Below, piece after piece: positions 8,409-23,874 of a DNA stretch of 39,770 nucleotides; position 1 is the first letter of the stretch, and the number at the start of each line of letters is the position of its first letter. The translations under genes were made by a program, and so were the position numbers. The DNA is from Deltaproteobacteria bacterium. Lineage in GTDB: Bacteria; Desulfobacterota; Binatia; UBA12015. The stretch is taken from contig VGTG01000042.1 of NCBI GenBank assembly GCA_016874795.1, positions 1-39,770 of the forward strand, given 5' to 3'. A model generated the notes under the pieces. That model searched no databases, was not told where the DNA came from, and saw nothing but the letters and a program-made list of their open reading frames with translations.

Positions 8409-8497
8409 GGAGAGGTGGCCGAGCCTGGTTGAAGGCGCACGACTCGAAATCGTGTATGCCCGGAAGGGCATCGTGGGTTCGAATCCCACCCTCTCCG
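8409..8497 (+). tRNA. tRNA-Ser (CGA)
   Basis: 89-nt class II tRNA. The acceptor stem GGAGAGG/CCTCTCC is perfect with discriminator G. The anticodon loop CTCGAAA gives anticodon CGA, reading UCG. There is a long variable arm, and the T-loop is TTCGAAT. CCA is not encoded. Confidence 0.96.
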
Positions 8498-8539
8498 CTT
8501 TCCAACGGCGACGTCGCCGAGCGAGGCTCCCGCCGTGGT

Positions 8540-8629
<90 letters not shown>

Positions 8630-8694
8630 GTTTCTCTCGGTGATCCGGTTGCTGGCGGCGACGGGCTCGATTAAGTAGGGGACGTTCGCGACGC

Positions 8695-8768
8695 GCGGGT
8701 GTAGCTCAGCTGGCTAGAGCGCAACCTTGCCAAGGTTGAGGTCGCCGGTTCGATCCCGGTCACCCGCT
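8695..8768 (+). tRNA. tRNA-Gly (GCC)
   Basis: 74-nt tRNA with acceptor stem GCGGGTG/CACCCGC. The anticodon stem CAACC/GGTTG encloses loop TTGCCAA, anticodon GCC, reading GGC and GGU. The discriminator is U and CCA is not encoded. It is the third tRNA of a same-strand cluster. Confidence 0.96.
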
Positions 8769-8871
8769 TCGTTTCTCCCCTCGGTCCTCTTCGCTTTCTC
8801 TCGGGCGTCGCGGCTCCGCGAGCGGAGTTTTCGTATGGCCTTGGTTCGCGCCATCGTGGTACGCGAACGAC

Positions 8872-9348
8872 ATGGGCTCCACGACGCTCTTCGTCAGCAA
8901 CTTCCCGTTTGCCATCACCGAATCCGACCTGCGTACGACCTTCGAGGAGTATTGCACCGTCAGCAGCATCCGGATCATCACGGATCGTCAGACGGGCCGG
9001 AGCCGCGGCTTCGCATTCATCGAGGTCGCCGACGAAACGGGCGGCGACCAGGCGATCGAGGCTCTCAACGAGTCGATGTTCCACGGAAGGCGCCTCGTCG
9101 TGAGCCGCGCACGCGGTCGAGCGGGAACGGCAGGCGGCGCGCGCGAATCGCCGCCGAGCTCGAGCTCGATCATCGAGCCGTTCAAGCACCGGATCGTCGT
9201 GGACTGGTGCGAGGACGAGCACGAGTACGCGGCGGAGGTACCCGACCTCGGGCTCTCGGCGCGTGCCGAGACGATCGAGGAAGCCGTCCGTCGCGTTCAG
9301 GGTCTTCGTCGTCGCAGCGCCGCGGGCGCGGGCAGCGGGGTCGGCTGA
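8872..9348 (+). CDS. RNA-binding protein: RRM domain fused to a HicB-like domain
   Basis: 158 residues in two parts. Residues about 4-82 are an RNA recognition motif with RNP2 LFVSNFP and RNP1 RGFAFIEV, like the small glycine-rich RRM proteins of bacteria. After a Gly/Ser linker, residues about 104-147 (HRIVVDWCEDEHEYAAEVPDL, then ETIEEAVRRVQ) match the HicB/UPF0150 antitoxin fold pattern: a strand, 'aevPdL', then a helix starting T-xEEA. No HicA-like toxin is next to it, so it is probably not a toxin-antitoxin pair. The start ATG at 8872 has no good Shine-Dalgarno. RNA binding is well supported; the role of the second domain is unknown. Confidence 0.8.
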   Translation: MGSTTLFVSNFPFAITESDLRTTFEEYCTVSSIRIITDRQTGRSRGFAFIEVADETGGDQAIEALNESMFHGRRLVVSRARGRAGTAGGARESPPSSSSIIEPFKHRIVVDWCEDEHEYAAEVPDLGLSARAETIEEAVRRVQGLRRRSAAGAGSGVG

Positions 9349-9489
9349 GCTTGACATTCGCGTGAAGTTGCGACAGCCGTCGAGCGGACGCGGGGGGCGA
9401 AGACGGCGACGAAGGGACGGCAAGGGAATCCGCGGGCCCGCGCAGAGCCCGCCGAGAAGAACCCGTCGTATCGACAGACGAGCCGCTCG

Positions 9490-10542
9490 CTGCTGCGCGG
9501 CAAGCGGGTCGCTTTTTCCGGCCGGCTCCTCTCCTGCGATCGCCGCGTCGCGCGGCGTCTCGTGGTGGGCGCGGGCGGCAGCCTCGCGAGCGCGCGCGAA
9601 GCGGATTTCGTCGTCGTCGGCGTCGGTGCGCGGCCGAACGATCCGCGCTCCGCTCGCATCGTGGACGAGTCGCAGTTCCTGCAGCTCGTCGGCACCGCGG
9701 CGGCCGAGCTCGGCGTACGGAACCTTGAAGGGCTCCGCGACCTCGTCGCGTCGAGCCAGGCCGCGCGGCTCTATCCGCGCGTCAACTGGGCGCGTCGCCG
9801 GCGGCTCGCGCGGCATGGCTTGCTGCAGCCGGTCCCGCTCGCGAACGGAACGGGCTACGGCTTCCGTGATCTGCGCGTTCTTCGCGAGGTCGACGAGATG
9901 CTCGCCGCCGGGCTGACGCTCACTCAGGCGATCCACCGCTTGCTGCCGCGCCTCGGCGGACAGCTCGAGCTCCGCTTCCCGATGGCCGCGGTGCGGCCGC
10001 AGCCGAAGCGGATCGACCTGCGGATGGAAAAGGAGACGGCGGACGCGTGGTTCGACGTCGGCTTCTGCGCCGACCGCGAGCGCTCGGGATTTCCGACGGC
10101 GATCGCGGCGTATCAGCGGGCTCTCGAGATCGATCCGGATCACGTCCCGTCGCTCATCAACCTCGGCAACGTGTACTACGAGCTCGGCGAGTTCGTGCGC
10201 GCGCGCGACATCTACGCTCGGGCCGCAGCCGTCGACGGCGACAACCCGCGGACGCACTTCAACCTCGCGAACGCCTGCGACGAGACGGGCGATCTCCTCG
10301 GCGCGACGCGCGCCTACCGTCGCTCGCTCCGTCTCTGGCCGGGGTACGCGGACGCACACTTCAATCTGGCCCTCGTCGCCGAGAAGCTCGGGAGCTGGAC
10401 GCTCGCGCTGACCCACTGGAAGCGCTTCCTCGAGCTCGAGCCCGGGAGCGACTGGGCCGCGGTCGCACGCTCCCATCTGGAGGACGCGCGTCGGAAGGGC
10501 GCGATCCAGGCGCGGCAACGGAAGCGTCTCCGGCCGCACTGA
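9490..10542 (+). CDS. BRCT - MerR-type HTH - tetratricopeptide repeat protein (start uncertain)
   Basis: Three domains can be read. The first is a BRCT domain whose first strand is LLRGKRVAFSGRLLS, followed by RLVVGAGGSLASAREADFVVVG. The second is a MerR-like winged HTH (ARLYPRVNWARRRRLARHGLLQPV, then GYGFRDLRVLREVDEMLAAG). The third is three to four TPR repeats (AIAAYQRALEIDPDHVPSLI, and further copies ending near LELEPGSDW). No ATG, GTG or TTG lies in frame between the stop at 9352-9354 and the BRCT start. The first usual start is GTG 9562, which would delete the BRCT core, so I placed the start at CTG 9490. A frameshift in the G6 run at 9392-9397 is another explanation. I read it as a regulator or scaffold of unknown target. 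Confidence 0.7.
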   Translation: MLRGKRVAFSGRLLSCDRRVARRLVVGAGGSLASAREADFVVVGVGARPNDPRSARIVDESQFLQLVGTAAAELGVRNLEGLRDLVASSQAARLYPRVNWARRRRLARHGLLQPVPLANGTGYGFRDLRVLREVDEMLAAGLTLTQAIHRLLPRLGGQLELRFPMAAVRPQPKRIDLRMEKETADAWFDVGFCADRERSGFPTAIAAYQRALEIDPDHVPSLINLGNVYYELGEFVRARDIYARAAAVDGDNPRTHFNLANACDETGDLLGATRAYRRSLRLWPGYADAHFNLALVAEKLGSWTLALTHWKRFLELEPGSDWAAVARSHLEDARRKGAIQARQRKRLRPH

Positions 10543-10628
10543 CGGGTCGGAAAAGGTCGTCCGGGGTAGCGTGCCCTCGGGCCCCGTGGTAGCCAAGGGC
10601 CGCGCGATCGAAGCGCTCTGCACCCCCC

Positions 10629-10701
10629 GGCGGCGTACCCAAGTGGCTAAGGGGAAGGTCTGCAAAACCTTTATTCGCGAGTTCGATTCTCGCCGCCGCC
10701 T
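10629..10701 (+). tRNA. tRNA-Cys (GCA)
   Basis: 73-nt tRNA with acceptor stem GGCGGCG/CGCCGCC. The anticodon loop CTGCAAA gives anticodon GCA, and the T-arm is GCGAG-TTCGATT-CTCGC. The discriminator is U, as expected for cysteine tRNA. CCA is not encoded. It is followed directly by copy B of the intergenic two-hairpin element. Confidence 0.95.
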
Positions 10702-10702
10702 T

Positions 10703-10812
10703 TTCATTGAGAGGAGGGGGGCGCCGCCCCTCTCCTCCACGCGGCAAAGCCTGAGCTGCGCCTCCTCACCCCGCTCGCTCGCGCTCGCCCGCGCGCTGCG
10801 CGCGCGGAGATG
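10703..10812 (+). repeat. Intergenic two-hairpin element, copy B
   Basis: It starts just after tRNA-Cys. An imperfect GGGG/CCCC hairpin spans roughly 10711-10737. The core GCGGCAAAGCCTGAGC is at 10741-10756, CTCACCCCGCTCGCT at about 10765-10779, and the hairpin CCGCGCGC/GCGCGCGG at 10789-10807. It matches copies A (3.1 kb) and C (29.1 kb) in order and sequence. Unlike them, it lies between co-directional genes, not convergent ones. Confidence 0.6.
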
Positions 10813-10868
10813 CATCGGTGGGGCGGTATGGTGGCGCCCGTGAGCGAGCACGGTATAGTGCCCCCCGG

Positions 10869-12146
10869 ATGGGCAGGGGAACGGGCGGACCGCAGTGGAT
10901 CGACACCGACCGGGACCTCGACGCCATCGTCGACGTGCTGGCCGGCGTGCCCGCCTACGGGTTCGACACCGAGTTCCACCGCGAGCGGTCGTACTATCCG
11001 CACCTGGCGCTGGTGCAGCTCTCCTGGGAGCAGGGCGTCGCCGTCGTCGATCCCCTCGCCGTGGATCTCGCGCCGCTGCGGAAGGTGCTCGAGGGGAAGG
11101 GCCTCGGCGTTTGTCACTCGGCCGAGCAGGACCTCGAGGTCCTGCAGCACGCCTGCGGTGCGGTGCCCGCGCGTCTCTTCGACACGCAGATCGCGGCGGC
11201 GTTCTCCGGGCTCGGCTTCGCTTCGCTCGCGAAGCTCGTGGCCGCGATCGCCGGCGAGAGGCTTCCAAAGGGAGATCGTCTCACCGACTGGACGCGCCGG
11301 CCGCTCGACGAGAACCAGATCGCGTACGCCGCCTCCGACGTGCAGTTCCTCCTGCCGATCGCGGCCGAGCTCCGGACGCGCGCCGAGGAGGCGGGCACGC
11401 TCGCGTGGATCGAGGAGGAGTGCGAGCGCGTCCGCACGCGCCCGATCGGACCGGCGGAGCCCGAGACCGCGTGGTGGCGCATCAAGGGAAGCCGGAGCCT
11501 TCGCGGCGCTTCTCGTGGGATCGCGCAGGAGGTCGCCGCGTGGCGCGAGCGCAGCGCTGCGAAGCGGGACCTTCCGCCGCGCTTCGTGCTCCCGGACCTC
11601 GCCCTCGCGGCGATCGTGCAGCGCGGCCCGCACAACCGCGAGGAGCTCGCGCGCGTGCGCGGGCTCGACGGACGCTACCTGAAGGGACCTCTCGAGCGGG
11701 AGATCCTCTCCGCGGTCGCACGCGGACGGGAGCTTCCCGCCGAGTCGCTGCACTTGCCGGCACGCGGCGAGGCGCCGCTCGAGGAGATCGGACCGACGGT
11801 CGCGCTCGGGCTCGCCCTCGTGGCTCAGGTCGCGGAGGAGCGCGGGATCGAGCCGTCGATGCTCGCGAGCCGTGCCGACGTGCACGCGGTCTCGTCCGGA
11901 CGAACCAGCGGAAAGCTCGCTTCGGGATGGCGCGACCAGCTCGTCGGCGAGAAGCTTCGTGCGCTCTTGTCGGGCCGCTCGGCGCTCACCGGCGACGGCC
12001 GCGGCGGCGTGCGCCTCATCGGGTGCGACGCGGACGGGAGCCGACCTGCGGCGGGCGTCGACGGCGCCGAAGTCGCGAGAGGCGCGAAATCGCGCGCGAG
12101 CGTGCGCGCAGCGGCGCGAGCGGCGGACGCAGCAGAGGACGCGTAG
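10869..12146 (+). CDS. rnd: Ribonuclease D
   Basis: 425 residues. A 3'-5' exoribonuclease of the DEDDy family that trims tRNA and other stable RNA 3' ends. Catalytic residues are visible: D33 and E35 in GFDTEFHRE, D88 in HSAEQDLEVL, and Y153/D157 in IAYAASDVQF. One HRDC domain follows at about 195-280 and a second helical segment resembling HRDC at about 310-385. The last 40 or so residues are Ala/Gly/Arg-rich and look disordered. The ATG at 10869 is taken as start; an in-frame GTG... start region 51 bp upstream would add an Arg-rich stretch overlapping the repeat. Neighbouring tRNA genes fit its job, though that link is only positional. Confidence 0.92.
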   Translation: MGRGTGGPQWIDTDRDLDAIVDVLAGVPAYGFDTEFHRERSYYPHLALVQLSWEQGVAVVDPLAVDLAPLRKVLEGKGLGVCHSAEQDLEVLQHACGAVPARLFDTQIAAAFSGLGFASLAKLVAAIAGERLPKGDRLTDWTRRPLDENQIAYAASDVQFLLPIAAELRTRAEEAGTLAWIEEECERVRTRPIGPAEPETAWWRIKGSRSLRGASRGIAQEVAAWRERSAAKRDLPPRFVLPDLALAAIVQRGPHNREELARVRGLDGRYLKGPLEREILSAVARGRELPAESLHLPARGEAPLEEIGPTVALGLALVAQVAEERGIEPSMLASRADVHAVSSGRTSGKLASGWRDQLVGEKLRALLSGRSALTGDGRGGVRLIGCDADGSRPAAGVDGAEVARGAKSRASVRAAARAADAAEDA

Positions 12147-12206
12147 GGCGAAACCTGGGCTTGCTGCGCGTCGATCTCGCGCGTAGGCCGCGTCGAAGAC
12201 GGGCTT

Positions 12207-12530
12207 TCATCGGATGGCCGGCAACCCGTTCCAACCGGCTAGCGACCCGGAGGTCAGGTTCACGATCGTGCCGCCACGGCGGTCGATCATTCCCGGCAGC
12301 ACCTTCTGCGTGAGGTACGCCGGCGCGACGACGCTCGCGATGAGGATCGTCTCGACGACGTCCACCGGCACGTCGAGGAAGCGATCCATCCGCCCGGGCC
12401 CCTGATCGATCGCGTTGTTGACCAGCGGGTCGATGCGACCGAAGCCCCGCAGGGTGGCGGCGAGCGCCAGGCTCGTCGCGCGGCCGATCCCGCGGCTCGC
12501 TCCGGTCACGAAGGCGACGCCACGTTCCAC
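12207..12530 (-). pseudogene. Short-chain dehydrogenase/reductase, internally deleted and truncated
   Basis: The reading begins as a normal SDR (FVTGASRGIGRA, the TGxxxGxG cofactor motif). It jumps directly to the segment before the NNA motif (FGRIDPLVNNA), so the roughly 50 residues normally between them are missing in frame. It then runs to INLTSGSLAG and stops within ten residues. The catalytic YxxxK pair and the whole C-terminal half are absent; a normal SDR is about 250 residues and this has 107. It cannot be a working oxidoreductase. It lies 14 bp downstream of the TonB receptor on the same strand and is probably a remnant carried with that gene. Confidence 0.75.
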
Positions 12531-12544
12531 GGCGGAGACGGGAA

Positions 12545-14965
12545 TCAGAAGCGGTGGCTGATCTCGATGCCGAGCGCGCGCGGCGGCTCGTAGTAGCGGA
12601 GGATGTTCCCGAGCGTGCTCGCGGTCGGCAGGACCTGCTGGAAATATTCCTGGTCGGTGAGGTTCTGTCCCCAGACGGCGAACTGCGAGCGGTCGTCGTT
12701 GAAATCGTAGCTGATGCGCGCGTGCAGCAGGTTGTAGGCGGGCTGCGTCGCCTGCGGGAGCTCGGGGAAATAGAAATTGACCGCGCTCCGGTAGTACCAG
12801 TCGAGCCGCGGCGTGAGCCAGCCGTTGAGCCAGGCGGGGCCGAACTCTGGAAGCGCGAAGGAGTACAGCAGCGTCAGGCGCGACTGGAACTTGGGCGAGT
12901 TGTTGAACGGCTCGCCCGCCCGGTCGATCTCCGAGTTGTTGAGCGCGCTGACGCTGGTGAACTCGTCATACTTGGCGTCCAGCAGGCCGATGGAGCCGAT
13001 CACGCTCGCTCCCTCGAAGGGGAGCAGGTTCAGCTCGAACTCTGCGCCCTTGGTGGTGGCCTTGGCGGCGTTCCGGATGACGATCTCGGCGAGGAAGCCG
13101 GTGCCCGGCTCGATCGTCGAGACCTGGATGTCGTCGTACTTGCCATAGAAGAATGACGTGTTGAAGGTGAGCTTCTGCTCCCAGCCGATCGTCTTGAAGC
13201 CGATCTCGTAGGACTCGAGCGTCTCGGGGGCGTAGGGCACGAGCTGCTCCGGTACGCCGCTGCGCGTGCTGCCGTTGAAGCCGCCGCCCTTGAAGCCCTC
13301 GCTGTAGGTGAAGTAGCCCATCAGGCTGTCGAGGTAGAGCTCGTCGAGCCAGTCGTCCGGCGCGCGCAACGTCAAGTTGCCCATCGGACTCCAGTTGGTG
13401 AAGATCGTGCTCTCGTTCGCGTCGACCAGAATCGGGTTCGCGCCAGGCGGAAGCTCGAGGATGTTCACCTGGTACTTGGCGAAGCCCTTCTTCTCCTCCG
13501 TGTAGCGGACGCCCCCCGTCAGGCCGAGCCAGTCGAAGATATCCCAGGTACCCTGGCCGAAGAGAGCCCAGCTCCAGTTGTCGACGTTGACCTTCGCGTT
13601 CGAGGTCGAGCCGAGGGTCGGCGGACCGAGCAGGGGCGACTCGATGGTCTGGTTGAAGCTCGCGGTCTCCCAGTACACGAAGTAACCGCCGATGTAGCTG
13701 AGATCGCCGTCGAGGGCGTTGCCTTGCAGCTGGATCTCCTGGCTGATCTGCTGCTGGAAGCCGGGGCCGCCGACGAACGTCTCGTCATTCTGGGGGCCGT
13801 AGTCGTCGAGCTGGAGGACGCGGATCGCGGTCCCGTCTCCCTCCTCGCGGATCTTCGGGATCTGCTCGCGCCACGCGGAGATCGACTTGACGAGCAAGCT
13901 CTCGAGGGGTCCCAGGTCGCCCACCTCGTAGTCGGCGACGTTCCAGATGCCGTACGTCTCGATGTCGCTGATCGCGGCGGTGTCGGCCTCGAACATGTAG
14001 GGGTGATTCGAGCGCTCGCACGCTTCCACGAAGCCGGGTGGAACGAGCGAGCCGAGCGGCGGCGGCTGGACCGGGACGCACTCGCCGCCCTTGCTGTTGC
14101 CGTGATCGCGGAACCAACTCCCCTTCAGCGTCGTCGTGAAACGATCGGTCGGAGTGAAACGTATCGCGCCGAGGAAGGCGAGCGAGTTCGTCGTGTTCCC
14201 GGGCCGGTCCTGCAGGGTGTTCAGGGTGTAGCCGGTGTTGTTCTCGGAGGAGAAGGCGAAGCGCGTGAAGAGCTTCCCGTCGAGCCACCCCGACTTCACC
14301 GGGACGTTCAGCATCGCGCGCGTCTGCACCTGATTGAAGCTCCCCGCCCGGAGCATCGCGAAGCCTTCCAGCTCCTCGCGCGGCTGGATCGTCGTGATGT
14401 TGATCGCGCCGCCGACGGTGTTCTTGCCGAACAGCGTGCCTTGCGGGCCGCGCAGGACCTCGACCTGCTCGATGTCGGAGACGTTCAGGATCGAGCCGGC
14501 CTGGCGCGCCAGGTAGACGCCGTCGACGTAGATGCCGACTCCGGGATCGAAGGTGATCACCGGATCGGGCTGGCCGACGCCGCGGATGAAGACGGCCGAG
14601 GTGAGGCCGGCGCGTCCGGAGTAGAAGCTCAGGTTCGGAACGAGGTCCTGGATCTGGTCGAGGCGCGTGACGCCGGTCTCGCGCAACGTCGCTTCGCCGA
14701 GCGCGGTGACCGAGATCGGCGTCTCCTCGAGGAGCTCTTCGCGCCGCCGCGCGGTGACGACGATCTGCTCGACTCGGCGGCGCTCCGTTTCGCTGAGGCC
14801 AGTCGCTTGGTCTTCTGCCTGCGTTTCCGCAGCCGTCTCGGGGGCGGAAGGATCGGGCGTGTCTGCCGGGGTGTCCGAAGGAAGCTCTTGTGCACGCGCG
14901 GCAGCGACCGCACCGCACGTGCACCCGATCAGCAGCAGGATTGCGCGCAAGCGGTGGGTCCGCAT
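12545..14965 (-). CDS. TonB-dependent outer-membrane receptor
   Basis: 806 residues. It has an N-terminal signal peptide (MRTHRLRAILLLIG, then AAARAQ) and a possible TonB box around VEQIVVTARRREE. The plug domain follows (TPISVTALGEATLRETG, VFIRGVGQ, VEVLRGPQGTLFGKNTVGG), then a 22-strand type beta-barrel ending in a terminal aromatic residue (EISHRF). It resembles the large receptor group common in sphingomonads and related bacteria, which take up siderophores, vitamin B12 or hydrophobic organics; the ligand cannot be told. The start at 14965 is chosen for the signal peptide. Third-position base use looks less GC-extreme than the flanking genes. Together with the SDR remnant and the integrase stump, this suggests acquisition by transfer. 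Confidence 0.93.
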   Translation of the reverse strand: MRTHRLRAILLLIGCTCGAVAAARAQELPSDTPADTPDPSAPETAAETQAEDQATGLSETERRRVEQIVVTARRREELLEETPISVTALGEATLRETGVTRLDQIQDLVPNLSFYSGRAGLTSAVFIRGVGQPDPVITFDPGVGIYVDGVYLARQAGSILNVSDIEQVEVLRGPQGTLFGKNTVGGAINITTIQPREELEGFAMLRAGSFNQVQTRAMLNVPVKSGWLDGKLFTRFAFSSENNTGYTLNTLQDRPGNTTNSLAFLGAIRFTPTDRFTTTLKGSWFRDHGNSKGGECVPVQPPPLGSLVPPGFVEACERSNHPYMFEADTAAISDIETYGIWNVADYEVGDLGPLESLLVKSISAWREQIPKIREEGDGTAIRVLQLDDYGPQNDETFVGGPGFQQQISQEIQLQGNALDGDLSYIGGYFVYWETASFNQTIESPLLGPPTLGSTSNAKVNVDNWSWALFGQGTWDIFDWLGLTGGVRYTEEKKGFAKYQVNILELPPGANPILVDANESTIFTNWSPMGNLTLRAPDDWLDELYLDSLMGYFTYSEGFKGGGFNGSTRSGVPEQLVPYAPETLESYEIGFKTIGWEQKLTFNTSFFYGKYDDIQVSTIEPGTGFLAEIVIRNAAKATTKGAEFELNLLPFEGASVIGSIGLLDAKYDEFTSVSALNNSEIDRAGEPFNNSPKFQSRLTLLYSFALPEFGPAWLNGWLTPRLDWYYRSAVNFYFPELPQATQPAYNLLHARISYDFNDDRSQFAVWGQNLTDQEYFQQVLPTASTLGNILRYYEPPRALGIEISHRF

Positions 14966-15065
14966 GGGCGTCCATAGACCGGCTCGCGGCGGGCTGGCAA
15001 GCACGGCGTGACCCTTACCTGTCGTCCACGATGACGCCGGGCATCGCTGCGCCGCATCGAGTGGC
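14966..15065. other. Intergenic stretch upstream of TonB receptor
   Basis: It contains the upstream region of the receptor gene. I see no recognisable promoter, operator or further coding remnant here. Together with the integrase stump, it forms a gap of about 460 bp without an intact gene between the receptor and tRNA-Leu. Confidence 0.4.
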
Positions 15066-15416
15066 GTGGTCGACTGGGACGATCGTTCAAATCGCCGAAC
15101 ACATGGGAAGGGCATCCGGTATCCCTGGCAGACCTGGCGCCGAGCTTGTAAGGCCGCGATGCTCGAGGGAAGACTGATGCACGACTTCAGGAGGACAGCG
15201 ATCCGAAGTTCGGTCCGGGCGGGAGTTCCGGACGGCGTGGCGATGAAGCTCTCTGGGCACAAGACGCGGGCGGTGTCCGACCGGTACGCGATCGTCTCCG
15301 ACCGGGACCTTCGGGACGCGGCAGAGCGCCTGGACGAGGCGTTTGGACCGCGAGCAGACACAAACTTGGACAGAGACAGCCTTCTAGCCGACTCGGTACA
15401 GGAGTTAACCCATTGA
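15066..15416 (+). pseudogene. Tyrosine recombinase / phage integrase, C-terminal fragment
   Basis: About 80 residues match the end of a phage-type integrase catalytic domain: WQTWRRACKAA, then the HxxR box HDFRRTAIRSSVRAGV, then SGHKTRAVSDRYAIVSDRDL with the second His and the nucleophilic Tyr. Upstream, the frame closes at a stop (15009-15011) with nothing recognisable of the core-binding domain or the first catalytic Arg, so the gene is truncated and inactive. Homologues of this subtype often end R-Y-x-I-V-S followed by DL, as seen here. It ends 12 bp before tRNA-Leu. tRNA genes are favoured integration sites, but no duplicated tRNA end was found at the far side. Confidence 0.75.
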
Positions 15417-15427
15417 TTCTCCAACGG

Positions 15428-15513
15428 GCCGGGGTGGCGAAATTGGCAGACGCAGAGGACTTAAAATCCTCTGGTGGGTGACCACCGTGAGGGTTCGATT
15501 CCCTCCCCCGGCA
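15428..15513 (+). tRNA. tRNA-Leu (TAA)
   Basis: 86-nt class II tRNA with acceptor stem GCCGGGG/CCCCGGC and discriminator A. The anticodon stem GAGGA/TCCTC encloses loop CTTAAAA, anticodon UAA, reading UUA and UUG. The variable arm is TGGGTGACCACCG-like and the T-arm GAGGG-TTCGATT-CCCTC. CCA is not encoded. Its 3' end is only 9 bp from the next start codon. Confidence 0.96.
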
Positions 15514-21258: not shown

Positions 21259-22409
21259 AGACGGACCGCCTGCTCGTCCTCGGGCTGATGGGGCGCTATC
21301 CGCTCGCCGGCGTCGGCTGGCAGGCGGTGCACTACCTCGTCGGCCTCGAGCGGCTCGGATGGGAGGTCTTCTACGCGGAGGACTCGGGAGCGCCGCCCTA
21401 CAGCCCGGGCCGCATCGCGCTCGGCTCCGACGCGGAGGAGAACGTCGCCTTCGTCCGCGACGTCATGGCTTCGATCGGTCTCGCGGATCGCTGGGTGTAC
21501 TGGGACGTGCTCGAGGACCGCCATCACGGCCTCGGTCGCGACGCTCTCGAAGAGCTCTACGCGACGAGCGCGCAGATCTGGAACCTCTGCGGCGCGACGC
21601 GTCCGCGCGCGGAGCATCGTCGTGGCGGCGTCCTCGTCTACGTCCAGACCGATCCGGGCGTCGAGCAGGCGGCCGCCGCTGCGGGCGACATGGACGTCGC
21701 CGCGATGCTCGAGGCGCACGACGTCCTCTTCACCTACGCGGAGCGCTTCGGGCGTCCGGACTGCCTCGTTCCGGTGGACCGGCGACGGTGGCTGACCACG
21801 CGACCGCCCGTCGTCCTCGACTTCTGGGAGTCGCCGCCGCCCCGGAGCGGAAGTCCCTTCACGACGGTCGGCACGTGGGAGAACCGTGGCAAGGACGTCG
21901 TCCACGCGGGTGCGCTCTGGCGCTGGTCGAAGCACGCGAGCTTTCTCGACCTGATCGACGTGCCGGCGCGCGCGGGCGTGCGCGCGGAAGCGGCGCTCGC
22001 TCCGCCGGACGACGTTGCTGCTCGCTTCCGCGCGAGCGGCTGGAGTCTCCGCGATCCGCGCGAGGTGTCGGCGAGCCTCGAAGCGTACCGTGACTTCGTG
22101 CGGAGCTCCTGCGGCGAGCTCACCGCCACGAAGGAGATCTACGTCCGCTCGCGCAGCGGCTGGTTCAGCGACCGGAGCGCCTGCTACCTCGCCGCCGGCC
22201 GGCCCGTCGTCACGGCGGACACGGGTCTCGGCGACGTCCTTCCGTGCGGACGCGGGCTCCTCGCGTATCGAACTCCCGACGAGGCGGTCGCCGCCCTCGA
22301 GGCCGTGCGCGACGATCTTCCGGCCCATGCGCGCGCCGCGCGGGCGCTCGCGGAGGAGCACTTCGACGCCTTGCGCGTCCTCGGCGCGATGCTCGAGCGA
22401 ATCCGCTAG
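21255..22409 (+). CDS. Glycosyltransferase, GT-B-like
   Basis: 384 residues. The N-terminus LLVLGLMGRYPLAGVGWQAVHYLVGLERLG and the C-terminal motif SGWFSDRSACYLAAGRPVVTADTGLG are typical of GT-B glycosyltransferases that use a nucleotide sugar, here with the acceptor side poorly conserved. It starts at a GTG overlapping the ABC gene stop (GTGA) and ends in TAG at 22407-22409, inside the CTAG flanking the MITE-like element. It is the last gene of the putative glycan-export cassette. Its donor and acceptor sugars cannot be inferred. Confidence 0.8.
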   Translation: MKTDRLLVLGLMGRYPLAGVGWQAVHYLVGLERLGWEVFYAEDSGAPPYSPGRIALGSDAEENVAFVRDVMASIGLADRWVYWDVLEDRHHGLGRDALEELYATSAQIWNLCGATRPRAEHRRGGVLVYVQTDPGVEQAAAAAGDMDVAAMLEAHDVLFTYAERFGRPDCLVPVDRRRWLTTRPPVVLDFWESPPPRSGSPFTTVGTWENRGKDVVHAGALWRWSKHASFLDLIDVPARAGVRAEAALAPPDDVAARFRASGWSLRDPREVSASLEAYRDFVRSSCGELTATKEIYVRSRSGWFSDRSACYLAAGRPVVTADTGLGDVLPCGRGLLAYRTPDEAVAALEAVRDDLPAHARAARALAEEHFDALRVLGAMLERIR

Positions 22410-22571
22410 TGCACCGCCGTCGAGATAGCGTCAAGCAGATTGCCGTTCATCGGCGTCCCTCGCAAGGAACGCCGACGAAGGAATATCTGGCATATTTCGA
22501 GGAGGTGTGACGCCGCGAGGGGCGTCGAGGGGCGGTAAGATGTTGACGCTATCTCGACGGCGGTGCACTAG
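22406..22571. mobile_element. MITE-like element with perfect terminal inverted repeats and CTAG duplication
   Basis: Arms at 22410-22434 and 22543-22567 are perfect 25-bp inverted repeats (outer end TGCACCGCCGTCGAG). Each is flanked by CTAG (22406-22409 and 22568-22571), fitting a 4-bp target duplication. The 108-bp interior holds two hairpins (22451-22474 and 22509-22526) and no transposase. Both convergent genes end within the flanking CTAG copies: TAG for the glycosyltransferase, CTA read on the minus strand for the acyl-CoA dehydrogenase. If one CTAG is removed with the element, the two stop codons would overlap. CTAG fits the YTAR duplication of some IS5-family members, so an IS5-like transposase may move it; that is inference. 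Confidence 0.75.
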
Positions 22572-23746
22572 TCGTCGCGGACGTGCTTCGGGCGGACGTA
22601 GCCCGCGCGCTTCAGGAGGCCGCGCGCGATCACGATCCGCTGGATCTCGTTCGTCCCCTCGCCGATGATCATCAGCGGCGCGTCGCGGTAGTAGCGCTCG
22701 ACGTTGAACTCCTGGCTGTAGCCGTAGCCGCCGTGGATGCGCATCGCCTCGAGCGCGACCTCCTGGCAGATCTCGGACGCGAAGAGCTTCGCCATGCCCG
22801 CTTCGAGGTCGCTCCGCTCGCCGCGGTCCTTCGCGGCGGCCGCGTTCCGCACGAGGAGGCGCGCGGCCTCGATCTTCGTCGCCATGTCGGCGAGCTTGAG
22901 CTGGATCGCCTGGTGCTCGCAGATCGGCTTCCCGAAGGTCTCGCGCTCCGTCGAGTACTTGAGCGCGTCCTCGAACGCCGCCTGCGCGACGCCGACGGCA
23001 CGCGCCGCGATGTTCACGCGGCCGACCTCGAGCCCCGCCATGACGTACTGGAAGCCTTCACCCTCGTTGCCGACGCGGTTCGCGACGGGAACGGGGAAGT
23101 CCTCGAAGGCGACCTCGGCCGACTCGACGCCCTTGTAGCCGAGCTTCGGAAGGTCGCGGCTGATCGTGCAGCCCGGCGCTCCCTTCTCGGCGAGAAGGAG
23201 CGTGATGCCCTTGTGCGGTGGATTCGCGGTGGGGTCCGTCTTGCAGACGAGGCCGAACATGGTCCCGGTGCGGGCGTTGGTCGACCACATCTTCGTGCCG
23301 TTGACGATGTACTGGTCGCCTTGACGCTTCGCGACGGTGCGGATGCGCTGCGCGTCGCTGCCGGCGTGCGCCTCCGTCAAGCCGAACGCGGCGCGCTTCT
23401 CGCCGCGGGCCATCGCAGGGAGGAACCGCTGCTTCTGCTCTTCGTTCCCGTAGGTGCGGATCGTGTAAGCGATCATCAGGTGGGTGTTGAGCACGCCGGA
23501 GAGGCTCATCCAGCCGCGGCAGAGCTCCTCGACGATGCGTGCGTACGTCGACACGGAGAGCGCGAGTCCGCCGTACGCCTCCGGGATCGTCGCACCGAAG
23601 AGGCCGAGCTCCTTCATGCGGTCGACGAGCGCCTGCGGATACTCGTTCGCGTGCTCGAGCTCGTTTGCGACGGGCTTGACTTCCTTCTCGACGAAGGTTC
23701 GGACTCCCTCGATCAAGTCGCGGTCGAAATCGCTCTCTGGCGCCAC
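22568..23746 (-). CDS. Acyl-CoA dehydrogenase
   Basis: 392 residues. An FAD-dependent enzyme that introduces the alpha-beta double bond in acyl-CoA. The FAD/substrate motifs AFGLTEAHAGSDAQ and WSTNART lie in the middle domain. The catalytic Glu region, REM... type in other families, is here near YRDAPLMIIGEGTNEIQ, with the base E in GEGTNEIQR. The start is a GTG at 23746-23744 with GAGGAGG just upstream on the minus strand; a longer reading to 23851 adds an unlike-looking Arg-rich tail. It ends in the CTAG beside the MITE-like element. It is divergent from the aceF operon. Isovaleryl-, butyryl- or short-chain type cannot be separated from sequence alone. Confidence 0.93.
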   Translation of the reverse strand: MAPESDFDRDLIEGVRTFVEKEVKPVANELEHANEYPQALVDRMKELGLFGATIPEAYGGLALSVSTYARIVEELCRGWMSLSGVLNTHLMIAYTIRTYGNEEQKQRFLPAMARGEKRAAFGLTEAHAGSDAQRIRTVAKRQGDQYIVNGTKMWSTNARTGTMFGLVCKTDPTANPPHKGITLLLAEKGAPGCTISRDLPKLGYKGVESAEVAFEDFPVPVANRVGNEGEGFQYVMAGLEVGRVNIAARAVGVAQAAFEDALKYSTERETFGKPICEHQAIQLKLADMATKIEAARLLVRNAAAAKDRGERSDLEAGMAKLFASEICQEVALEAMRIHGGYGYSQEFNVERYYRDAPLMIIGEGTNEIQRIVIARGLLKRAGYVRPKHVRDD

Positions 23747-23874
23747 GGCGGCCCTCCTCGGGGGGAATTCAACAGGCGTGCGCGCGCGCCGCAACCGGCA
23801 CGAGAAAACGAGGTCGCGACCGTGGGACTGAGCGCGCGTGAGCCGGTACACTGGGAGCGGGAGGAGTCGACGCG

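Follow-up and report, generated by a model that had tools for sequence, protein, structure and literature searches.

MITEs derived from IS630 are a known kind of element, and a CTAG-targeting, stop-supplying transposon of the IS481 family has already been published. IS630 of Shigella reportedly prefers CTAG as its target. IS630-type elements insert into TA, which they duplicate (PMC2170065), and IS630 is among the families over-represented between convergent genes (PMC9208149). The IS481 transposon, TnRErm46 (ISRe46), targets CTAG such that the TAG is the stop of some host genes, which stay intact, and the target TAG also supplies the stop of its own transposase (PMC6794481). Another short MITE, MITEPsy1 of P. 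syringae, has CTAG among its duplicated targets (PMC3189936). A literature search, with thin coverage of subscription papers, turned up no MITE reported at gene stops or between genes that converge.

The element described here lies in a stretch of 39,770 nucleotides from a deltaproteobacterial assembly (GCA_016874795.1), hereafter the window (Table 1). Like the MITEs of the IS630/Tc1-mariner group (IS630 of Shigella, ISY100), it is short and geneless, has TA (within CTAG) at both edges and shares its ends with an element encoding an IS630 transposase. Unlike them, it is predicted to fold over its whole 158 bp as one hairpin, and no resident transposase was found; moreover, related families here keep the central hairpin while their ends differ. 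It resembles TnRErm46 in its CTAG target and in the use of TAG as the stop of intact host genes, but TnRErm46 has an IS481 transposase, a length of 6.9 kb and a 6-bp NCTAGN repeat, and the accessible part of its description mentions no MITE (PMC6794481). MITEPsy1 differs in its 100-nt length, in its 18-nt ends, which are tied to ISPsy2 (IS5), and in a 4-nt duplication of CTAG or YTAA (PMC3189936).

We consider it very probable that the element is a MITE of the IS630 (Tc1/mariner) family, mobilised in trans and inserted at the TA of a CTAG such that both convergent stops survived. Specifically, an IS630 transposase recognising TGCACCGCCGTCGA... ends would cut out the geneless element and paste it into the TA within a CTAG, a motif that is rare in this high-GC genome and, where it does occur, is often a gene's TAG stop. 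Since insertion would duplicate the core, a complete stop would be kept on each flank, and at a CTAG common to two convergent genes both stops would survive. We infer the TA duplication and the trans mobilisation, and the excess at gene ends would reflect the distribution of targets together with the removal of harmful insertions. The site preference would thereby be largely explained.

Table 1. Features of the window and of related elements elsewhere in the genome and in relatives.
Feature	Position	Strand	Remark
Glycosyltransferase-like gene, 3' part (PF13524)	21660..22409	+	start uncertain
Left CTAG	22406..22409		glycosyltransferase-like gene (plus strand) stops with TAG at 22407-22409
Non-autonomous element, 158 bp	22410..22567		geneless; one long imperfect hairpin (predicted)
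Left terminal inverted repeat, 25 bp	22410..22434	+	resembles ends of relatives' IS630-family elements
Right terminal inverted repeat, 25 bp	22543..22567	-	exact complement of left
Right CTAG	22568..22571		acyl-CoA dehydrogenase gene (minus strand) stops with CTA at 22568-22570
Acyl-CoA dehydrogenase gene	22568..23851	-	PF00441, PF02770, PF02771
Family-2 copy, own genome	L034:1319-1504
158-bp kind with ends TGTCCTGAGTCAGA	C111
158-bp kind with ends TGTCCCGTCCCTGA	C59, C75
CTAG-flanked elements, exactly 158 bp long, other ends, family-1 core	L062:2252-2417, L065:2021-2186, L066:1932-2097
IS5-like element, ends CAGGTYGCTGAAGAA	L107:109-1493 (C167)		flanks CTAG/CTAA; sits at edge of TGTCCCGTC-type end
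TIR-like sequence (possible remnant) beside CTAG in G002	L265:1460-1478	minus	end match 17/19

The initial annotation had described, at 22406-22571, a CTAG-flanked 158-bp element with perfect 25-bp inverted ends and no transposase, each flanking CTAG being the stop of one gene; all of this was confirmed, and none of 100 shuffles of the window held a match to the exact inverted ends. When the flanks are merged on a single CTAG, the stops of the convergent genes overlap by two bases, as had been proposed. The claim that the insertion left both genes undamaged appears to hold as far as their reading frames go, both of which end at their own stops; the PF13524 score of the glycosyltransferase-like frame is barely above the cut-off. 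In place of the two interior hairpins that had been suggested, the 166 nt from CTAG to CTAG are predicted to fold into one long, imperfectly paired hairpin of -121.5 kcal/mol, with z = -15.4 relative to 200 dinucleotide shuffles. An Rfam search of the window returned only tRNAs, and five tRNA genes lie at 8409-15513.

The proposed search for the 25-bp end elsewhere in the 6.27-Mb genome gave, at up to 3 mismatches, 27 + 22 = 49 matches, whereas the reversed control gave 0 + 0. The element, which we call family 1, is present at 33 places, where the matched parts are 97-100% identical; the count rests on the 40 candidates scored out of 72, and the 49 end matches fall on the same 33 places. The assembly consists of 360 contigs, many of which end within these repeats, and because many of the 33 places are at contig ends, halves of one copy have perhaps been counted twice. 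One copy, on C19, is 100% identical, hence the family spread recently, and an internally deleted derivative (C11:12506-12602) retains 89 bp between CTAGs. The element is thus short, free of a transposase, multicopy and near-identical among its copies, as expected of a MITE. We also identified a second CTAG-flanked hairpin, family 2, of 178 bp with ends CCTGCATTTCTCACC, which has 123 + 124 end matches in the same genome; of its 258 candidates, 40 copies were scored and are 99-100% identical.

That the element was inserted, as the initial annotation proposed, is borne out by these 33 places and by an empty site in a relative. A search with the glycosyltransferase part matched 11 of 15 genomes, own genome included. 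In G001, of the same genus, the same two genes converge as neighbours, with the element absent and a single CTAG present, which is the single-CTAG site that had been predicted for a relative. This CTAG is the dehydrogenase stop; the glycosyltransferase is read through it in a different frame, and its own stop is a TGA 7 bases further on. The genes are likewise adjacent and element-free in G007, of the same family, where CTCA aligns at the position of CTAG. G002, of the same genus, has one CTAG, at which tblastn places the dehydrogenase end, with GTCGACGTCGGTGCG directly before it; together they match 17 of 19 bases of the element end found in G002 itself, which none of 200 shuffles did. This TIR-like sequence may be what is left of an earlier, independent insertion here, which suggests repeated use of the site. 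A third genome of the genus, G003, gave no match to the glycosyltransferase part.

Family-1 ends, at up to 3 mismatches, occur in 6 of 58 genomes, own genome included. In G006, family-1-like ends bound an element with an intact frame for a 350-aa transposase, which scores 193 bits against the NCBIfam IS630 model (NF033545; cut-off 100) and 52 bits against PF13358 (cut-off 28.6). Over alignments of 32-41 bases, the ends of the MITE are 83-91% identical to the ends of L138 and L154 (G006) and L139 (G020); its interior has no clear match in these three elements. By its ends and the family of its partner, the element would therefore be an IS630-derived MITE, and the comparison assigns likely IS630 partners to small hairpin families within one bacterial class. 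Homologues of the G006 transposase (E <= 1e-30) were found in 16 of 118 genomes, the own genome not among them, and several are bordered by CTAG|TG...CA|CTAG. Among 14 homologue loci scanned for the transposase stop, four (L138, L139, L154 and L147) take their stop from the TAG in the flanking CTAG, eight use another stop (six of these 6-52 bases before a CTAG) and two gave none. A resident IS630 was sought in the own genome by PF13358 (0 matches at E <= 0.001) and with the transposase query P0001 (no match at 1e-30, a threshold that would hide weaker matches), and the candidate was dropped; the mobilising enzyme would accordingly be absent, diverged or unassembled. The search for a full-length element with the same ends, which the initial annotation had called for, thus succeeded in relatives, where similar ends belong to IS630 elements, but not in the own genome.

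Two other transposase families could produce a similar picture. The initial annotation favoured an IS5-like partner, with a 4-bp YTAR/CTAG duplication; CTAG on both sides agrees with this, MITEPsy1 of P. syringae, probably derived from an IS5 element, duplicates CTAG or YTAA (PMC3189936), and the only PF01609 (DDE_Tnp_1) match in the own genome is an IS5-like transposase, on C167, that adjoins a CTAG. However, the ends of that IS5-like element, CAGGTYGCTGAAGAA, differ from the MITE ends, TGCACCGCCGTCG, and we rejected it as partner. The matching ends belong instead to full-length IS630-family elements of relatives, so that an IS5 origin is largely refuted and, in our estimate, highly improbable. 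An IS481-type MITE is scarcely credible: although an IS481-family transposon has TG... ends and targets NCTAGN, and although TnRErm46 takes its transposase stop and some host stops from CTAG (PMC6794481), the transposase with matching ends, above the IS630 cut-off, reaches only 42 bits against the IS481 model, far under its cut-off of 224.

The IS630 assignment also bears on the length of the duplication. In an 839-kb sample, CTAG was observed 152 times against 673 expected from trinucleotides, an approximately fourfold depletion. The flanks were compared for the 68 copies whose two ends were each within 8 bp; CTAG bounds 57 of these at either side (family 1, 10/17; family 2, 47/51). The remaining 11 comprise four cut short by the end of a contig, one (L207) with a misaligned end, and six in which one flank departs from CTAG (CTGG in three, and CTAC, TTAG and CCGG in one each). 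The single CTAG/CTAC copy, of family 1, is allowed by a TA duplication, and the three with CTGG are predicted by neither duplication model without later mutation. As most copies are CTAG/CTAG, the sequence alone fits TA and 4-bp duplications alike; the ends shared with IS630 make TA within CTAG the probable duplication. Of the 4-bp CTAG duplication described by the initial annotation, the CTAG on both sides therefore stands, but with an IS630 partner the duplicated part is most likely the TA inside it. Replacement of CTAG by CCAG/CTGG at one flank was seen in C53, C63 and C55 of the own genome and in L113 and L119 of relatives. This is the change expected of very-short-patch repair, and it may also bear on the depletion of CTAG.

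Insertions coincide with gene stops more often than empty CTAGs do. Genes and stops were called with a home-made codon-usage score trained on the own genome; in the run reported here, sites with under 400 bp of flank were dropped and tandem neighbours merged, leaving 55 of the 68 copies against 104 empty CTAGs (another classification run, differing in detail, had 14 occupied and 112 empty sites). With the families pooled, at least one exact stop is supplied by 36/55 insertions and 30/104 empty CTAGs (p = 1e-5), and both stops by 7 insertions versus 1 empty CTAG (p = 0.003). Insertions lie between convergent gene ends in 27/55 cases versus 11/104 (p = 1.4e-7). The 839-kb sample alone gave 8/16 versus 11/104 for convergent sites (p = 5e-4) and 9/16 versus 30/104 for at least one stop (p = 0.04). 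With away/toward sites (one-direction genes or intragenic) removed from both groups, the figures were 27/48 versus 11/72 and 36/48 versus 30/72, respectively. Family 1 alone supplies at least one stop at 5/7 sites (p = 0.03), while its convergent fraction, 1/7, does not differ from the control; three of the 48 sites assigned to family 2 are family-1/family-2 pairs. Counted by intact CTAG flanks, exact stops make up 17/34 visible flanks of family 1 versus 31/208 empty-CTAG sides (p = 1.6e-5) and 36/99 of family 2 (p = 5e-5 against the same sides), the latter possibly including a few family-1 flanks. The stop-codon position is thus a tendency of both families in the own genome, and the convergent excess is shown for family 2 only. 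For the related family in G002, the stop excess was not significant (11/52 versus 21/186, p = 0.10), and 0 of 4 two-sided copies were called convergent. More generally, the counts show that a depleted palindromic target that doubles as a stop on both strands is a near-harmless niche for transposons.

The same distribution could be read differently, with the hairpin serving the host's convergent genes as a two-way terminator or to stabilise their 3' ends, and not, or no longer only, as a mobile element; we regard this as quite unlikely. It would account for the great stability of the hairpin and for the pooled convergent excess, but the latter comes from family 2 and not family 1, near-identical copies are dispersed over the genome, and G001 has an empty site. 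Moreover, a simple scan requiring a T-run found 0 terminator-like sites in 22300-22700, and hence no G+C-rich hairpin with a U-tract as in an intrinsic bidirectional terminator. Pairing within the hairpin also speaks for it. In an alignment of 10 hand-picked elements, two-sided changes occur in 19 of 42 predicted pairs; such changes are expected within the ends, given that one end has to match the other. Of the 14 pairs interior to the ends, 8 have two-sided changes and 95.6% of cells pair, and 95.6% aside, five measures were set against 500 shuffles: on four of them no shuffle reaches what was observed, and on the remaining one, pair types, 39 do, the structure being derived from the same alignment as tested. 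Nevertheless, the interior changes could stem from arm-to-arm copying.

The central sequence of the IS630-type family 1 recurs in two further kinds of 158-bp element with different ends, TGTCCTGAGTCAGA and TGTCCCGTCCCTGA, which resemble the ends of other IS630 homologues (L143 and L147). Family-1-like elements of relatives are 149-161 bp long, with one shortened copy of 80 bp (L126). This common core with differing ends offers a way to test how hairpins of this kind persist. We can imagine that a core of about 158 bp swaps ends for different IS630 transposases and is kept preferentially where convergent gene ends overlap or adjoin, as a two-way transcription barrier, an unlikely scenario in our view; if true, CTAG-targeting elements would build 3'-end insulators across a bacterial class.

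Family-2-like ends, at up to 3 mismatches, occur in 21 of 116 genomes, own genome included. A full-length parent with ends CCTGCATTTCTCACC was not found among the loci with such ends, and the exact ends were absent from 20 loci of PF13701 matches. One locus, L295 (G057:C2), holds a CTAA-flanked, PF13701 IS1380-type element with ends CCCGGATTATTCACGG, which are loosely like those of family 2; as a lead only, it represents a possible partner type. Families 1 and 2 abut with one CTAG in common on C10, C53, C118, C71, C175, C255 and C117, where the CTAG at the edge of one family seems to have served as the target of the other.
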